A stretch of 64,000 bases of DNA. Origin: Cyanobium sp. FGCU6. GTDB taxonomy: Bacteria > Cyanobacteriota > Cyanobacteriia > PCC-6307 > Cyanobiaceae. Position 1 is the first letter of the stretch. Each line of letters starts with the position of its first letter. The stretch spans positions 1-64,000 of the forward strand of contig JANWUR010000006.1 of the NCBI GenBank assembly GCA_024958655.1. Direction: 5' to 3'. Position numbers and translations under genes: made by a program. Of the stretch, positions 16,209 through 25,254 are shown in pieces. The notes under the pieces are model-generated. The model was not told where the DNA came from, did not search any database, and saw only the letters and a list, made by a program, of their open reading frames with translations.

Positions 16209-16989
16209 GGGTGTCGGCGATCACGCGGTTGGTATCGAAATAGACCTGCCAGTAATGGTCATTGTTCGTGTAGGGACGGACTGCCAGGCGGGGGCCCCGC
16301 TCGGTGAAGGTAAGCAGTTCCACATCGGGGTCCTTGCCCGGGTACTGGTTGGGCACCGCCTTGAGGGCATCCTTGAGCAGAGCGATCGCACGATTCACAT
16401 CGGCACTGCTGTCGAGCTGAGCCTCCAGTTCGACGCGGCGGAAGGGGTGGGAGGAATAGTTGACGATCGTGTCGCCGAAGAACTTGCCATTGGGGATGAT
16501 ATGACGCACGTTGTCGGGCGCGAGGACGGACGTCACGAACATTCCGATCTCCTCAACGGTGCCGGTGACACCACCAGCAGTGACGAAATCGCCGCTGCTC
16601 ACCGGACGGAAGATCTGCAGAAAGACACCGGCGGCGAAGTTGCTGAGCATTCCGCTCCAGGCTGCACCGATCGCCACACCGGCACCGGCGAGAAGGGCGG
16701 CGAAGCTGGCTGTCTGGATGCCGAAGAACCCAAGGATCGCCACAGCCAGCACCACCCGCAGCAGGGCTCCGAGGATGTTGAGCAGAAAGCCGATCAGGGT
16801 GGGATCGAGTGTGCTCTTGTTGAAGGTGCGGCGGAGCACCTTGAGAACCATTCGGATCAGCCAGGTGCCCACAATCCAGAGGGCAACGGCACCGGCAAGT
16901 TTGAACAGGAACGGCACCAGGATGGTCACCACCATCGAGGGATCGGCAACCAATGTGGTGGGACTTGGCACAGCAGCCAGGAAAGACAT
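16147..16989 (-). CDS. Small-conductance mechanosensitive channel family protein
   Basis: This 280-residue MscS-type protein has N-terminal transmembrane helices and a pore-lining helix with Gly/Ala packing near residues 95-128 (LAGAGVAIGAAWSGMLSN, then FAAGVFLQIFRP). A beta domain with GDFVTAGGVTGTVEEI and PNGKFFGDTIVNYS follows, the conserved family pattern. It should open under membrane tension and release osmolytes. It is 49 bp downstream of folP on the same strand. Confidence 0.93.
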   Translation of the reverse strand: MSFLAAVPSPTTLVADPSMVVTILVPFLFKLAGAVALWIVGTWLIRMVLKVLRRTFNKSTLDPTLIGFLLNILGALLRVVLAVAILGFFGIQTASFAALLAGAGVAIGAAWSGMLSNFAAGVFLQIFRPVSSGDFVTAGGVTGTVEEIGMFVTSVLAPDNVRHIIPNGKFFGDTIVNYSSHPFRRVELEAQLDSSADVNRAIALLKDALKAVPNQYPGKDPDVELLTFTERGPRLAVRPYTNNDHYWQVYFDTNRVIADTLSQNGFPVPRIPVQLGQSGA

Positions 16990-17038
16990 TCGTCTTATTT
17001 TTCAGTACTGACAAAAAACCAAAGAGCCAGCACCCGTG

Positions 17039-17935
17039 TCAAGGAGAGGCCGCTGCCGGTGAGGAGACACACAAATCCTGGCCGCACAGCGCATCAGCCA
17101 TCCTGGCCGTCTGCACAACCGGGCCTACATCGTGAACCCTCAGCACGGCGGCACCCCGGCTGATCGCCAGGGTACAGACCGCCACCGTTCCCCACAGCCG
17201 TGCCCGGGGTCTCGGTTCATCGAGCACAGTACCGATGAACCGCTTGCGCGAGGGGCCTACCAGCAGTGGGAAACCCTCGCCCGCAAGGCGATCCAGCCCC
17301 CGCAGCAGCGCCAGGTTCTGCTCGGAGCTCTTGGCGAAGCCGAGGCCAGGGTCCCAGAGGATCCGCTGCGGCTGCACCCCGGCGGCCAGCAGGTCGTCGG
17401 TGGCGTCGAGCAGCTCGGCCCGCACCTCCGCCAGCACATCGCCGTAGACGGCAAGCGCGTCCATGGCGAGGCTGTCGCCCCGGTTGTGCATCAGCACGTA
17501 GGGGCACCCGGCTGCCGCCACGAGGGCCGCCATCGCCGGATCGCGCAAGGTACTGCCGCCGCGCACGTCATTCACCCAGTCGGCCCCTTCCGCCAGGGCC
17601 ACCTCGGCCACGGTGGCGCGGAAGGTGTCCACCGACAGCAGGGCGGTGGGATAGGCGCTGCGGAGTGCGCGGAGCACCGGCAGCAGCCGCTGCAGTTCGG
17701 ACTCCGGCCCGATCTCGGATGCCCCCGGCCTGGTGCTCTGGGCCCCGAGATCCAGCACATCCGCCCCGGCCGCCAGCATCTTCCGGGCCTGGCGGACCGC
17801 GGCTTCCGGCCGATCGAAGCGGCCCCCGTCGCTGAAGGAATCCGGAGTGAGGTTGAGGATCCCCATCACCCAGGTGCGAGAACCATCCGGCAGCAGGGGC
17901 CTGCCCGAAGAGAGCGGATCCGCCGCAGGAGCCAT
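17039..17935 (-). CDS. folP: Dihydropteroate synthase
   Basis: FolP condenses p-aminobenzoate with dihydropterin pyrophosphate in folate synthesis. The signature VMGILNLTPDSFSDGG is near residue 24, SVDTFRA and MHNRGD follow in order, and the C-terminal GPSRKRFIG motif is present. The likely start is the ATG at 17935, giving 298 residues; a Met four codons upstream is also possible. It is 40 bp downstream of the Nmad3-type gene on the same strand. Confidence 0.95.
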   Translation of the reverse strand: MAPAADPLSSGRPLLPDGSRTWVMGILNLTPDSFSDGGRFDRPEAAVRQARKMLAAGADVLDLGAQSTRPGASEIGPESELQRLLPVLRALRSAYPTALLSVDTFRATVAEVALAEGADWVNDVRGGSTLRDPAMAALVAAAGCPYVLMHNRGDSLAMDALAVYGDVLAEVRAELLDATDDLLAAGVQPQRILWDPGLGFAKSSEQNLALLRGLDRLAGEGFPLLVGPSRKRFIGTVLDEPRPRARLWGTVAVCTLAISRGAAVLRVHDVGPVVQTARMADALCGQDLCVSSPAAASP

Positions 17936-17975
17936 CGCCGGGCACACAGATGCCCCCCATCCTGCTGCGCCACCC

Positions 17976-18848
17976 TCAGGGTTCGTCAGCGATCAGGGCC
18001 TCCAGCCAGTCGCGGTGAGGTCCCTGCTCCGGAAGCTCGATCACGAACTCCTGGCCGATGCGGGCCGAGCGCAGACGTACGCCATCACCCTGGCGCTGCC
18101 ACAGCCCGGGATCGCGGTGGTAGCTGAGTGTTGGCGCCTGCGGCTCCGGCAACCACCAGCCGGGCAGCCGCCAAAGGCTGCGTGTGGGAGCATCCGGAGC
18201 GGTGAGCTGCCGGTGGGGGGTGGCCCGCTGGAACCGCCCGGCGGCCGGCGCGGCGGAGGCCACCAGCCGGGAGTCTGGGGCCGCCAGATAGAGGGTGTTG
18301 TGGGGATCGGCCCGCAGATCGGCGCGCTGATGGTGGGGATGGTCGGCCAGCCAGGGGTGCATCGCCAGGCAGCGCTCAGACTGCCGACCCAGGGGCAGAA
18401 CCTCTCCCACCTCCAGCCAGCCGAAGATCAGATGCCGATCGGGGGCTCCACTCCGGTACACCCAGCGTCCCCGGCGGCGCTGCACGGAGCGGAACCAACC
18501 GAAGAACAGGAACAGATCCCCCGGGCCCACCCCCTCTCGCCGCAGGTGGCCGGCGGCGGCACCGGCCTGGCCCAGGCACGGGCGCCAGCCGGGCAGGGCA
18601 GCGGCCGGGGGCTGGAGCTGGGGATCCGCATGCACGCGCAAATCCGCAGCCAACCGGCCGCCACTGAGATCGCCCACCAGCTCAACGATCCGCCCGTTGC
18701 CGAGCGGCAGGGAGATCTCATCCAGGCGGGTGGTCTCGGCCGGATGGGGAATCGGCAGGGGCAGCAGGGTGCCGTCCGGCAGGATCGGACTGGGGATGCC
18801 GCCGTGGCGGGCGTCGAATCCCTTGCGGGAGAGCACCAGCTTCACCAC
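17976..18848 (-). CDS. Nmad3-type putative nucleotide-modification-associated protein
   Basis: The N-terminus (KLVLSRKGFDARHGG followed by PSPILPDGTLLPLPIPH) matches, from memory, the Nmad3 domain, a family predicted from gene neighbourhoods to take part in modifying bases in DNA. Other conserved-looking stretches are GDLFLFFGWFR and DRHLIFGWLEVGEV. Length is 290 residues. It starts at GTG-GTG (18848 or 18845), 36 bp downstream of tpiA and upstream of folP, all leftward. No phage genes or partner modification enzymes are nearby, so its role here is unknown. Confidence 0.75.
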   Translation of the reverse strand: MVKLVLSRKGFDARHGGIPSPILPDGTLLPLPIPHPAETTRLDEISLPLGNGRIVELVGDLSGGRLAADLRVHADPQLQPPAAALPGWRPCLGQAGAAAGHLRREGVGPGDLFLFFGWFRSVQRRRGRWVYRSGAPDRHLIFGWLEVGEVLPLGRQSERCLAMHPWLADHPHHQRADLRADPHNTLYLAAPDSRLVASAAPAAGRFQRATPHRQLTAPDAPTRSLWRLPGWWLPEPQAPTLSYHRDPGLWQRQGDGVRLRSARIGQEFVIELPEQGPHRDWLEALIADEP

Positions 18849-18884
18849 GTCGCCTCGCAGGCTCCCGGGCCCGTCGGGCCGGCA

Positions 18885-19625
18885 TCAGGCGGCCACCGGC
18901 ACCTGGTAGTTGACGATGCGGGCGAAGCCCACCGGATCGAGCGAGGCGCCGCCCACCAGCACGCCGTCGATGTCGCTCTGGGCCATCAGCTCATCGATCG
19001 TGGCCGGGTTCACCGAGCCGCCGTACTGCACGATCACATCACGATTGCCGACCCAACCGCGGATCAGAGCGCAGATGCGATTGGCCTCATCGGCGGCACA
19101 GGTCTTGCCGGTGCCGATGGCCCAGATCGGCTCGTAGGCCACGATCAGCCGGGAGGGATCGATTCCCTCAAGTCCCTGCTCCACCTGGCGGTGGATCACG
19201 CGTTCGGTCTCGCGGGCCTCGCGTTGATCCAGGCTCTCGCCCACGCACAGGATCGGGATCAGGTCGTGGGCCTGGGCGGTGCGGGCGCGCAGATTGATCT
19301 GTTCGTCGGTTTCGCTGTAGTACTTACGAGGCTCGCTGTGGCCCACGATCGCGTGGGTGACGCCGTGCTCGATCAGCATCGGCGCCGAGATCATGCCGGT
19401 ATAAGCACCCTTCTCCTCCCAGTGCACGTTCTGACCGGCGATCGCCACGCCGGCTCCCTCCAGATGGCGACAGAGGGTGGGAATCGAGGTGAAAGGCGGG
19501 GCGATGACCACCTGGCGATCGGCCGGCAGGTCGGCGATCAATGGTCGGAAGGCAGCGGCGAAGTCCCGCGTCTCCGCGCAGGTCATGTGCATCTTCCAGT
19601 TCCCGGCGATGACGGTCTTGCGCAC
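18885..19625 (-). CDS. tpiA: Triosephosphate isomerase
   Basis: TpiA interconverts dihydroxyacetone phosphate and glyceraldehyde 3-phosphate in the Calvin cycle and glycolysis. AGNWKMHMT contains the catalytic Lys, GHSEPR the catalytic His, and [13 protein letters not shown] the catalytic Glu; the C-terminal [10 protein letters not shown] phosphate loop is intact. The open frame runs far upstream, but the GTG at 19625 with a nearby GAGGGG site gives 246 residues, the normal length. It probably starts a leftward unit with Nmad3 and folP. Confidence 0.95.
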
Positions 19626-19657
19626 CTGCGGCCCCTCGTGATCGGATTCGGGGCACG

Positions 19658-19879
19658 CTAAGCCGCCGGCGGGCTCCCATCCCCTGGGGGCGAGCGGTCC
19701 GGGGGCATCACCAGCCGCTCGATGCCATCGATCTCCACCGCATCCCCGAGGGCGAGGCTGCGGCCGCGCCGCGTCTCGATCGCCCCGTTCACCTTCACAT
19801 CGCCGCGCTGGATGCGGTGCTTGGCTTCGCCGCCGGTGGCCACCAGGCCCTGCCATTTGAGGTACTGATCGAGCTTCAC
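19658..19879 (-). CDS. S4-domain RNA-binding protein
   Basis: A 73-residue protein made up almost entirely of an S4 RNA-binding fold: [20 protein letters not shown], then [10 protein letters not shown] and the closing [11 protein letters not shown]. The family resembles YbcJ/RlbA-type small S4 proteins. It lies 32 bp upstream of tpiA and diverges from the ABC transporter gene with only 22 bp between start codons. Confidence 0.88.
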
Positions 19880-19901
19880 GGACGGGGCTTAGGTTGCCCC
19901 G

Positions 19902-21668
19902 ATGCTTGCACCCTCGCCGGCGGGCTTCCGCAGACTCTGGCCCCTGCTGAAGCCCCATCGGCGACGCCTGGCGGCTGGCGGCCTCTGCATGCTGGTGTAC
20001 GTGGCGTGCTGGCCGCTGCTGGCCTGGCTGGCCGGCCAGCTGATCCCCGCCATCGGCGCCGGCGACTTCCCGGCCGTGCTGCGGGCTGTGGGGGGCGCGC
20101 TGGCGGTGTTCCTCATCCAGAAGATCGCCCAGTTCGGACAGGACACCCTCTTGGCCGGACCGGCGCTGCGGGTGAGCCAGGAGCTGCGGCGCCGGGTGTT
20201 CGACCGGCTGCAACGTCTGGAGTTCGGCGCCCTCGAGAAGCTCTCGGCCGGCGATCTCACCTACCGGCTCACCGAGGACGCCGACCGGGTGGGAGAGGTG
20301 ATCTACAAAACGATCCAGGACACCACTCCCAGCGCCCTGCAGCTGGTGGTGGTACTGGGCTACATGATCTGGCTGGATGTGCCGCTGGCCCTGGCCACCC
20401 TGCTGCTGGCGCCTCTGGTGGCGGTGCTGGTGAGCGTGTTCGGCGCCCGGGTGATGGCGGCGGCCGAGCGCAGTCAGAAGCAGGTGAGCGAGCTGGCGGC
20501 GCTGCTGGGTGAGGCCATCGGCGGGCTGCCCCTGGTGCGGGCGTTCGCCGCCGAACCCTGGCTGCAGCAGCGCTTCGACGAGGAGATCGACCTGCACCGC
20601 CAGGCCCGCTACCGCACACTCAAGCTGCTCGCCCTGCAGCATCCGGTGGTGGGCTTCATCGAAGCGGCCGGCATCCTGGCGGTGCTGTTGATCGGGGCGG
20701 CCCGCATCCAGGCCGGCGGCCTCGACAGCCAGAGCTTCAGCAGCTACGTGGCCGCTCTGCTGATGCTGATCGACCCGATCTCCCACCTCACCACCAACTA
20801 CAACGAGTTCCAGCAGGGGCAGGCCTCGCTGCGGCGTCTGCGGGCGATCGAGGCCGAGCCGATCGAGACGCCCGACCGACCCGGCGCCCGCGCCCTTCCC
20901 ACTGGAAGCGTGCGGGGGGAACTGGTGCTCGAGAAGGTGAGCTTCGGCTACGACCCGGCTCAACCGGTGCTCCACGATCTCAATCTGCACATCACCCCCG
21001 ACCAGGTGGTGGCCCTGGTGGGTCCCTCCGGGGCGGGTAAGAGCACCCTGTTCTCGCTGCTGCTGCGCTTCAACACCGCCCAGCGGGGCCGGGTGCTGCT
21101 CGACGGCCACGACCTGGCCGATCTCCAGGCCCGGGAACTGCGCCGAACCGTGGCCCTGGTGCCCCAGCGCTCCAATGTGTTCTCGGGGACGGTGGCTGAG
21201 GCGATCGCCTTCGGCCGCCCGGCCAGCCGCGCGCAGATTGTGCGGGCGGCCGAACTGGCCAACGCCGACGGCTTCATCGCCGCCCTGCCGGACGGCTACG
21301 ACAGCCGCATCGAGGAGCGAGGCAGCAACTTCTCCGGCGGCCAGCTGCAACGCCTGGCGATCGCCCGCGCCGTGCTCGGCGATCCGGCCGTGCTGCTGCT
21401 CGATGAAGCCACCAGCGCCCTCGACGCCGAGGCCGAAGAGGCGGTGCAGCGGGGGCTGCACCAGGCGATGGCCGGCCGCACCGTGCTGGTGATCGCCCAC
21501 CGCCTGGCCACGGTGCAGGAAGCCGATCGGATCCTGGTGCTCGAAGCGGGGCGGATCGTGGAGCAGGGCACCCACGACGGCCTGATGGCCCGGGGCGGCC
21601 GCTACCGCGACCTCTGCCTGCGCCAGTTCATCCGCCTGGAAGCCGAGGCGCAGACATCCGTATCCTGA
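19902..21668 (+). CDS. ABC exporter, fused permease and ATPase
   Basis: This 588-residue half-transporter has an N-terminal six-helix membrane domain followed by an ATPase domain. Walker [10 protein letters not shown] is near residue 373, the ABC signature [13 protein letters not shown] near 478 and Walker [13 protein letters not shown] near 497; an H-loop IAHRLATV follows. The layout is that of MsbA/multidrug/lipid exporters that work as homodimers. The substrate cannot be read from sequence. It is followed 20 bp later by the DUF6447 gene. Confidence 0.93.
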
Positions 21669-23229: not shown

Positions 23230-25254
23230 TTATAGCTGAGCTCGAGCCTTAGGGTCTCGAGGATCTCTTGGTCGATTGCCAAGAATGTGGGGGTGAGCAG
23301 AAATGAACCGCTGGAAGATGTGAGCTGCGTAGTAATCAAGGAAGTGAGCCTCATCTTTATAGTGAGAAGCCTGACAATCATCTCCATCACAGGTGGTGGG
23401 ATCAACCCCATCCCAGAAGATTCGACGCTTCCCGTCGGCCCAGGACGTGATCCAGCCAAAATCGCTCTGACGTTTTTCCAGAAACGCCCTGGCATCCACC
23501 CGGCAATCGGGGCTCAGGGCAGACTTAAACCATTGAGGGTAGCAATATCCCTCCGACATCCCTTCGAGACCAGGAAAACGCGGGGCATTGAGATAGATGA
23601 CGACGGTTGCGCCCTTATCGACAAACTTCTCAGCGATGGTCCGCAAACGCCTTGAATAGTCCACCCTTGCACGCTCAAACTGAACCTCTCCACTAACAGG
23701 GGTAAAATAAGCGGTAAGATAGTTGCCAATAAATACAAGATCTCCTGGCTGGAGTCTTCTTAGCATCTGATCGGCAACGGCTTCCTGCGAAGCGATGCAC
23801 TTCTGCTTGACGGCATTATCTGGGAAGGCGTATGATGGCAGGGCCGGAAATGGACAGGCATTGCCCCAGATTCCAACGAATCCGGCACCCTTCGATCGTG
23901 CAAAAGATGCGATTGCAGAACGGAATTGGTGGATATGGCTGTCTCCAAGCAGATAGACAACAGGCCTACCGGCAGGCGCGCTGAATCCGCACCCTGGCCC
24001 AGATGAGATCACACTCTTTGGATCTTCAAAAAGGTTACAGATTGGTGTATTGGGTATGGGCTTGACAAGGTAGGCGTCAAGCAACCTATTGCTACTACCA
24101 AGAAACAGCCTGCCCTCCAGTGGCTTGGCCAGCACAAGCAGAAATCCAGCACATGCAAAGCTGGCACCGGCACCAAAAGCAAACGTTCCCCACGAGGTGC
24201 GTGACCAGGTTGCGTGTCTTAGCGGCTTCTCAATCCAGCGATAAGAACCATAGGCAATCAGAACGATCAGCAGTAACTGGAAGGGAATCGTCCACCAGTG
24301 AATGCCTATGGTCCATCGACTCAACGACAATACAGGCCAGTGCCAAAGATAAAGCGAATAGGAAAGCAACCCAACCCAAACGAGCTTAGGAGTAGAGAAA
24401 AAATTCAGGAGAAAAGAGTTTGAAGATATTGAAACGAGCAGAATCGTAGTCGAAACTGCAGCAATAATGGTCGCGAATGGAGAAGTGGAAGGCGGGATAA
24501 CAAGTGCTACGCCCACCATCAGCAGGCAAATCAGGGGTGTCAGCCAACGGTGGCCATCTACCAAGCTGCGTCTACTGTTGCGCATCCAGAAACAGGCCAG
24601 ACAACCCAGTCCCATTTCCCAGAACCGCGATGGCATCAGGTAAAAGGCAGCATCTGGATGATCGGGCTTCAACCACACATACAGGCATAATGACAAGAGG
24701 CTGAGAGCCGCAAGGATATAGACAAAGGCAGTCGCGGCAGCCTGCCGTCTCCGGCCCAATCCGCAAGACCAGAACAAGAAGGGATAGACAACGTAAAATT
24801 GCTCCTCGACCCCCAGTGACCACGTATGCGTGAACACATTGAGATCAGTCGAACTGGCGAAATAGTCTGTCTGAAGCTTATAGAGCAGTAGATTGGATGC
24901 TCCGATCAGAGAAGCAAGTCCTGTTTGAAGGCTTAGGCCGGGATTTGGGTTGACCAGGCAGATCAAAAAGCCGACGATCGCGACTAAAATAATCAGTGCG
25001 GGCCATAAGCGCTTGATCCGCCTGACATAAAACCCGGTGTAGAAATCCGTGCTGTGATCAAACTGCCTGGCAAGAAGAGATCCGGTAATAACAAAGCCTG
25101 AAATAACAAAAAAGATATCAACCCCGAGAAACCCGCCAGGCAGAGCTCGCTTGTCAAAATGATTAATGATAACTGCCAGTATAGCGATCGCCCTCAGGCC
25201 ATCAATCTCTGGCCGATACCGAAAGGCGGAAGTGATCGGATCCGACGACGCCAC
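23230..25254 (-). CDS. Acyltransferase-3/SGNH fused membrane O-acyltransferase
   Basis: This 674-residue protein starts with the OafA-type acyltransferase-3 domain: RPEIDGLRAIAILAVIINHF, then GFLGVDIFFVISGFVI and the YVRRIKRLWPAL segment, with about ten membrane helices. A C-terminal SGNH hydrolase-like domain follows, with GDSH near residue 436 and a DEAHF block near the end. Such fusions O-acetylate cell-surface polysaccharide or lipopolysaccharide. Base composition is clearly lower in GC than the neighbours, suggesting horizontal transfer, as is common for O-antigen modification genes. It begins two bases after the carB stop. Confidence 0.92.
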   Translation of the reverse strand: MASSDPITSAFRYRPEIDGLRAIAILAVIINHFDKRALPGGFLGVDIFFVISGFVITGSLLARQFDHSTDFYTGFYVRRIKRLWPALIILVAIVGFLICLVNPNPGLSLQTGLASLIGASNLLLYKLQTDYFASSTDLNVFTHTWSLGVEEQFYVVYPFLFWSCGLGRRRQAAATAFVYILAALSLLSLCLYVWLKPDHPDAAFYLMPSRFWEMGLGCLACFWMRNSRRSLVDGHRWLTPLICLLMVGVALVIPPSTSPFATIIAAVSTTILLVSISSNSFLLNFFSTPKLVWVGLLSYSLYLWHWPVLSLSRWTIGIHWWTIPFQLLLIVLIAYGSYRWIEKPLRHATWSRTSWGTFAFGAGASFACAGFLLVLAKPLEGRLFLGSSNRLLDAYLVKPIPNTPICNLFEDPKSVISSGPGCGFSAPAGRPVVYLLGDSHIHQFRSAIASFARSKGAGFVGIWGNACPFPALPSYAFPDNAVKQKCIASQEAVADQMLRRLQPGDLVFIGNYLTAYFTPVSGEVQFERARVDYSRRLRTIAEKFVDKGATVVIYLNAPRFPGLEGMSEGYCYPQWFKSALSPDCRVDARAFLEKRQSDFGWITSWADGKRRIFWDGVDPTTCDGDDCQASHYKDEAHFLDYYAAHIFQRFISAHPHILGNRPRDPRDPKARAQL

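Follow-up and report, generated by a model that had tools for sequence, protein, structure and literature searches.

The window analysed here is a stretch of 64,000 nucleotides from Cyanobium sp. FGCU6. On its minus strand, at 17976-18848, lies an open reading frame (ORF) of 290 codons with a GTG start, which encodes a protein of the Nmad3 family. The initial annotation had placed such a frame between tpiA and folP, and this placement agrees with the ORF list of the window and, for folP, with a Pterin_bind match. The genes tpiA, nmad3 and folP, and then a gene for an MscS-type channel, all lie on one strand, and the first three are arranged as follows:

18885..19625, minus strand: tpiA, the upstream flank, an ORF with its stop at 18885 and a putative GTG start at 19625
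17976..18845, minus strand: nmad3 with its start as probably corrected (PF18754, E 2.5e-69; FGCU52 codons; family consensus)
17039..17947, minus strand: folP, the downstream flank (Pterin_bind, PF00809, E 9.1e-83)

A Pfam search matched the window protein to Nmad3 (PF18754) at 234 bits, well above the cut-off of 27, and with an E-value of 2.5e-69, over profile positions 1-246 of 247, and Nmad3 was the sole Pfam family listed at E-values up to 1. Judged by its sequence, the ORF is a genuine, full-length member of the family, and the HMM search thus upholds an assignment that the initial annotation had made from the letters alone. An NCBIfam search of the same protein gave no match, and the PADLOC models gave no family at E-values up to 1. 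The gene probably starts at the GTG at 18845, one codon after the GTG at 18848, because the alignment with the related Cyanobium sp. FGCU52 shows CTG in place of the first GTG but a conserved second GTG, and because the family consensus starts MKIILSRKG. By a crude Nei-Gojobori calculation on one genome pair, the window and FGCU52, nmad3 has a dN of 0.136 and a dS of 0.411. The resulting ratio of 0.33, set beside 0.26 for folP and 0.05 for tpiA in the same pair, makes nmad3 look like a gene that is kept under purifying selection. A 642-codon open frame on the plus strand (17733-19661) covers nmad3 and the greater part of tpiA in antisense, and is probably a by-product of the high GC content of the window (68.5%).

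The arrangement of nmad3 between tpiA and folP is not conserved. Among 42 genomes of the genus, four were found to carry Nmad3, namely the window genome, Cyanobium sp. FGCU52 (taken to be G018), G023 and G038, and the order tpiA-nmad3-folP is found only in the first two, between which tpiA is 98% identical. The proteins of G023 and G038 are a distant version, 29-31% identical, and no tpiA or folP match was found around their genes in stretches of 19.6 and 6.8 kb. In other genus members tpiA adjoins folP directly. The folP locus was surveyed in 28 of the remaining 40 genomes, with G023 and G038 among the 12 left out, and in 27 of the 28 loci the pair is joined without nmad3, with less than 200 nucleotides between alignment edges; in one of these 27 the tail of tpiA alone was matched, and the 28th locus (L119) stopped at a contig edge ahead of tpiA. 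Given that two genomes carry nmad3 at this site and that 27 of 28 other loci are empty, the simplest history is a single gain in an ancestor shared by the window strain and FGCU52. The empty sites also speak against a conserved housekeeping role. A picocyanobacterial role in metabolism, linked to TpiA or FolP, would fit the shared order and strand in the two genomes, but with the tpiA-folP junction empty in 27 of 28 other loci it is very improbable. The location of nmad3 is probably accidental. No promoter or terminator patterns were found in 16900-20000, and a hairpin between tpiA and nmad3 was no stronger than in shuffled sequences (z of 0.93 in the window and -1.15 in FGCU52); nmad3 may be co-transcribed with tpiA and folP.

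Beyond the genus, nmad3 has a wide and patchy distribution. Scanning genome contigs yielded 266 relatives, the best 80 of which span 17 phylum labels, with 39 from Pseudomonadota and two without a label. Nmad3 was found in 8 of 400 genomes in a sample of the window's family, in 5 of 386 in a sample of the phylum, and in none of 14 well-known control genomes. The initial annotation had suggested a cellular role in picocyanobacteria, as one of two readings of what it took to be a housekeeping cluster. As stated this is not supported, given these low frequencies in genus, family and phylum and with tpiA adjoining folP without nmad3 in 27 of the 28 loci surveyed.

A donor outside the cyanobacteria is likely: a quick tree built from 95 rows places the window and FGCU52 pair, with a long branch, closest to bins of Myxococcota and Pseudomonadota. 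Their group is weakly supported (88%) and also contains a member of the window's family (G192, L014), whose branch is very long, and the row for the window protein has an unusual composition in this tree. As to the vehicle, a phage origin by direct similarity was set aside after the window protein found no match in 50,697 phage records or in PHROGs, and a plasmid was set aside as well, given that just two plasmids among 72,556 records match; they measure 3.2 and 1.6 Mb and are typed as non-mobilizable. A virus may nevertheless have been the vehicle, because nine viral contigs carry relatives. Within the window's family, another genome has a divergent Nmad3 match (L016; G146:C19, about 23897-24379) that contains an in-frame TAG and covers profile positions 4-174 only, and this is perhaps a decayed copy.

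Conservation was assessed over 65 rows, comprising the window protein and sequences from 64 of the best 80 loci. Four motifs stand out in this alignment:

18813..18830, minus strand: S-R-K-G-F-D, residues 7-12, directly after the first predicted strand (residues 2-8)
18492..18521, minus strand: G-D-L-F-L-F-F-G-W-F, residues 110-119
18333..18341, minus strand: H-P-H, residues 170-172
18045..18056, minus strand: G-Q-E-F, residues 265-268

In the first motif, S7, R8, K9 and D12 occur in 65 of 65 rows, G10 in 62 and F11 in 52. The second is invariant from D111 to W118, with G110 in 64 rows and F119 in 62. H170 and H172 are found in every row and P171 in 64, and likewise G265 and Q266 in every row and E267 and F268 in 64, with one gap each. 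The near-invariant polar residues are S7, R8, K9, D12, H73, D75, D111, H139, H170, H172, R223, H244 and E267, and because they are so many they suggest either a very specific ligand or chemistry on a ligand. The window protein keeps most near-invariant residues, but Q77 replaces the D found in 61 of 65 rows and A84 the R found in 59, such that a changed specificity is possible. The second reading in the initial annotation was that this branch falls outside the modification prediction. Compared with a typical PF18754 protein, it has the full-length match and the invariant motifs, and differs in these two residues and in being encoded by a solitary gene set in a metabolic pair.

The genes next to nmad3 in its relatives were surveyed by taking the nearest neighbours with a longest-ORF rule, after 18 loci, mostly near-duplicates, were omitted. 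Of the 150 neighbours picked, 134 were scanned; the other 16 comprised copies of Nmad2, the flanking genes of FGCU52 and a small number of ORFs from loci with Nmad2. Because contig ends cut many loci, the neighbour counts are lower bounds. The 134 proteins match 155 Pfam families, none of which occurs in more than four proteins among the best 25 listed, and 123 PADLOC families, with each of the 25 listed found in one protein. Most neighbours are ordinary metabolic or transport genes of varied kinds, and this variety also argues against a tie to TpiA or FolP. A cellular rather than a phage or defence setting is common in the relatives. To that extent the setting described in the initial annotation stands, but the housekeeping cluster that it described is not conserved.

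The most recurrent neighbour is Nmad2 (PF18753), which was sought with a home-made profile and matched in 17 of the best 80 of the 266 loci. It abuts nmad3 in 14 of the 80, including one locus (L090) where the match is below the Pfam cut-off, and lies 557 bases off in L070 and about 2.9 kb off in L083 and L085. It also abuts nmad3 in L013, from the window's family, and in the viral contigs L136 (a weak match) and L139. Both gene orders occur. When the Nmad2 label is placed on the tree, it requires at least five changes on starred branches, and none of 500 label shuffles was as clustered, a result to which near-copies contribute. In Mobilicoccus massiliensis (L081, 5004-5858), nmad3 is present as two consecutive ORFs, as if broken, and an intact Nmad2 adjoins it. 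Nmad2 was found in none of the 42 genomes of the genus. A repeated search with a positive control found it in G115 and did not find it in G000, G018, G023, G038 or G192. A profile comparison detected no sequence relation between Nmad3 and Nmad2.

Several other coupled genes are linked to DNA. In eight loci (L033, L047, L054, L066, L076, L080, L082 and L087), from seven Granulosicoccaceae bins and one Chromatiales bin, nmad3 is preceded by an ORF of a single, glycosylase-type cluster. This ORF overlaps nmad3 in five loci, lies within 40 nucleotides in two and is about 260 nucleotides off in one. Among the members checked, HhH-GPD was found in L047 and L066, and the ORFs of L047 and L087 are AlkA-like at 33-34 bits, far below the model cut-off of 229. 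An Acidobacteriota bin has a 3'-5' exonuclease/DNA polymerase gene that overlaps nmad3. A gene of the uncharacterised family DUF6994 overlaps nmad3 in three of the four genomes of f31, a group of small genomes in the cyanobacterial phylum, for instance at the nmad3 start in L017 and L019. The coupled genes of other loci, for PurK, an MFS transporter and a deacetylase, are unrelated to DNA.

One viral contig (L132, 3320-4660) carries a gene for an N6/N4 DNA methylase with a ParB_N domain directly upstream of nmad3, and a similar methylase lies about 2 kb from nmad3 in L138. These two loci, together with the Pfam family name and the many invariant polar residues, would suit an enzyme for base modification, with Nmad3 or its partners adding the modification to nucleotides or to DNA. 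That reading is doubtful, in that no nucleotide-modification genes adjoin the window gene, which is solitary in its genus, and the predicted fold resembles domains that bind bases.

The fold was modelled with AlphaFold2 from 65 sequences, giving a pLDDT of 92.8 and a pTM of 0.92. A profile search of Nmad3 against the PDB had no hit, and no convincing solved relative was found by sequence. Foldseek gave no significant match to the model (best E-value 0.16), and its non-significant rows include ATP sulfurylase, the McrB N-terminal domain (McrB-N) on m5C DNA, the TRIP4 ASCH domain on DNA, PH1033 and unrelated proteins. VIA-align was run on 461 Foldseek candidates, with 43 rows listed. The Z scores are 7.8 for MJECL36, 7.1 for PH1033, 6.6 for free McrB-N, 6.3 for McrB-N on m5C DNA, 5.8 for THYN1 on 5mC DNA and 5.7 for ZmASCH. 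Sixteen listed entries have a Z of at least 5.0 and none reaches 8, below which, according to the tool, a score may reflect a common arrangement. Many of the listed titles name ASCH, DUF55, McrB or THYN1, and nearly all of the 43 rows are proteins that we take to be PUA-like; YTH chains are absent among them, which still allows a YTH fold. A library of viral folds gave an ASCH protein as its best row (E-value 0.027) among otherwise mixed rows.

MJECL36 and PH1033 (2hd9) are presumably EVE proteins, and they align with the Nmad3 model over 137 of 145 residues, while McrB-N and THYN1 align over 149 of 171-175 residues, with Z scores of 5.8-7.8 across this set. EVE proteins differ in length, at about 145 residues versus the 290 of Nmad3, and have no sequence or profile link to it: the window protein has no EVE (PF01878) match in Pfam at E-values up to 1, and an hhalign comparison of Nmad3 with EVE (30 rows) gave an E-value of 0.28, not better than those of 28 control families (lowest 0.045). 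The window genome also encodes a separate, ordinary EVE protein. The Nmad2 model (14 rows) has a pLDDT of 81.3. Foldseek places ZmASCH first for it (E-value 0.037), and of the 50 VIA-align rows listed 45 have YTH in their title, many of them being entries for a single protein, YTHDC1. Nmad2 therefore resembles Nmad3 both as its operon partner in relatives and in a PUA-like model, nearest to YTH and ASCH, and differs from the window protein in sequence and in not being found in the genus. By these models, the most likely fold of Nmad3 is PUA-like, of the EVE/ASCH/YTH kind, with large insertions. The single scores are modest, but two separately modelled partner families reach the same superfamily, which makes the reading persuasive. 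The profile comparisons, in which no link is seen, speak against it.

Two further roles can be drawn from such a fold. The predicted likeness to McrB-N, along with the patchy, horizontal distribution, suggests a component of defence or counter-defence that senses modified foreign DNA, as in modification-dependent restriction. A domain called NMAD, without a number, appears in DefensePredictor figure legends for defence systems, both predicted and tested (PMC13092281). This role is unlikely for the window protein, which has no PADLOC match and no adjoining nuclease, and the PADLOC families listed among the neighbours of relatives each come from a single neighbour.

Nmad3 could also act in salvage by hydrolysing free modified nucleosides, in the manner of the ASCH protein YqfB. 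According to PMC9599836, YqfB-type ASCH proteins hydrolyse N4-acetylcytidine through a Thr-Lys-Glu triad and do not bind nucleic acids, and the ASCH octapeptide is G-X-K-X-X-[ETS]-X-R. The PUA-like prediction and the invariant S-R-K-G-x-D-type motif near the first strand are in keeping with this idea, and ZmASCH is similar in predicted fold. However, the octapeptide that holds the YqfB triad is missing in 65 of 65 rows of Nmad3, which leaves such a hydrolase quite improbable.

We favour, with a probability of about 0.5, the reading that nmad3 is a horizontally gained, stand-alone gene, inserted once between tpiA and folP in the ancestor of the window strain and FGCU52, and that its product is a PUA-like recogniser of a modified or damaged base. 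By analogy with PUA-like domains, Nmad3 would hold such a base in DNA, in RNA or as a free nucleotide. In the model, the pocket for the base would lie near the first strand and the invariant S-R-K..D motif, and it may act with or without chemistry, perhaps processing the base. EVE, SRA and YTH domains bind modified bases, and SRA flips them out, as described in PMC7641849. Reading of a base is also supported by the coupled genes linked to DNA in some lineages, the AlkA-like HhH-GPD gene and the exonuclease/polymerase gene. The metabolic neighbours say little about the function of nmad3, because the gene is mobile and its predicted shape is like that of modified-base recognisers.

More speculatively, Nmad2 and Nmad3 might be an unrecognised pair of the PUA superfamily that together read a single DNA modification or lesion and perhaps remove it, passing it on in some lineages to an AlkA-like glycosylase, or else to a repair polymerase; the module would have spread horizontally, with the Cyanobium gene a solitary part of it. 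Literature searches found no evidently related paper on Nmad3 or Nmad2 by name, and none on NMAD combined with PUA, the founding paper on these domains being outside the reach of both. Nucleotide modification associated domains were reportedly introduced by Iyer et al. in 2013.

The tpiA/folP locus is a clean example of misleading metabolic neighbours, in which a gene was probably inserted between two paired genes within a single small lineage. A poorly studied family named by association gains a predicted fold that can be tested and a most recurrent partner, Nmad2. The candidate ligands to which this points are modified bases in DNA, in RNA or as nucleosides, and the partner genes are those for Nmad2 and the AlkA-like glycosylase.
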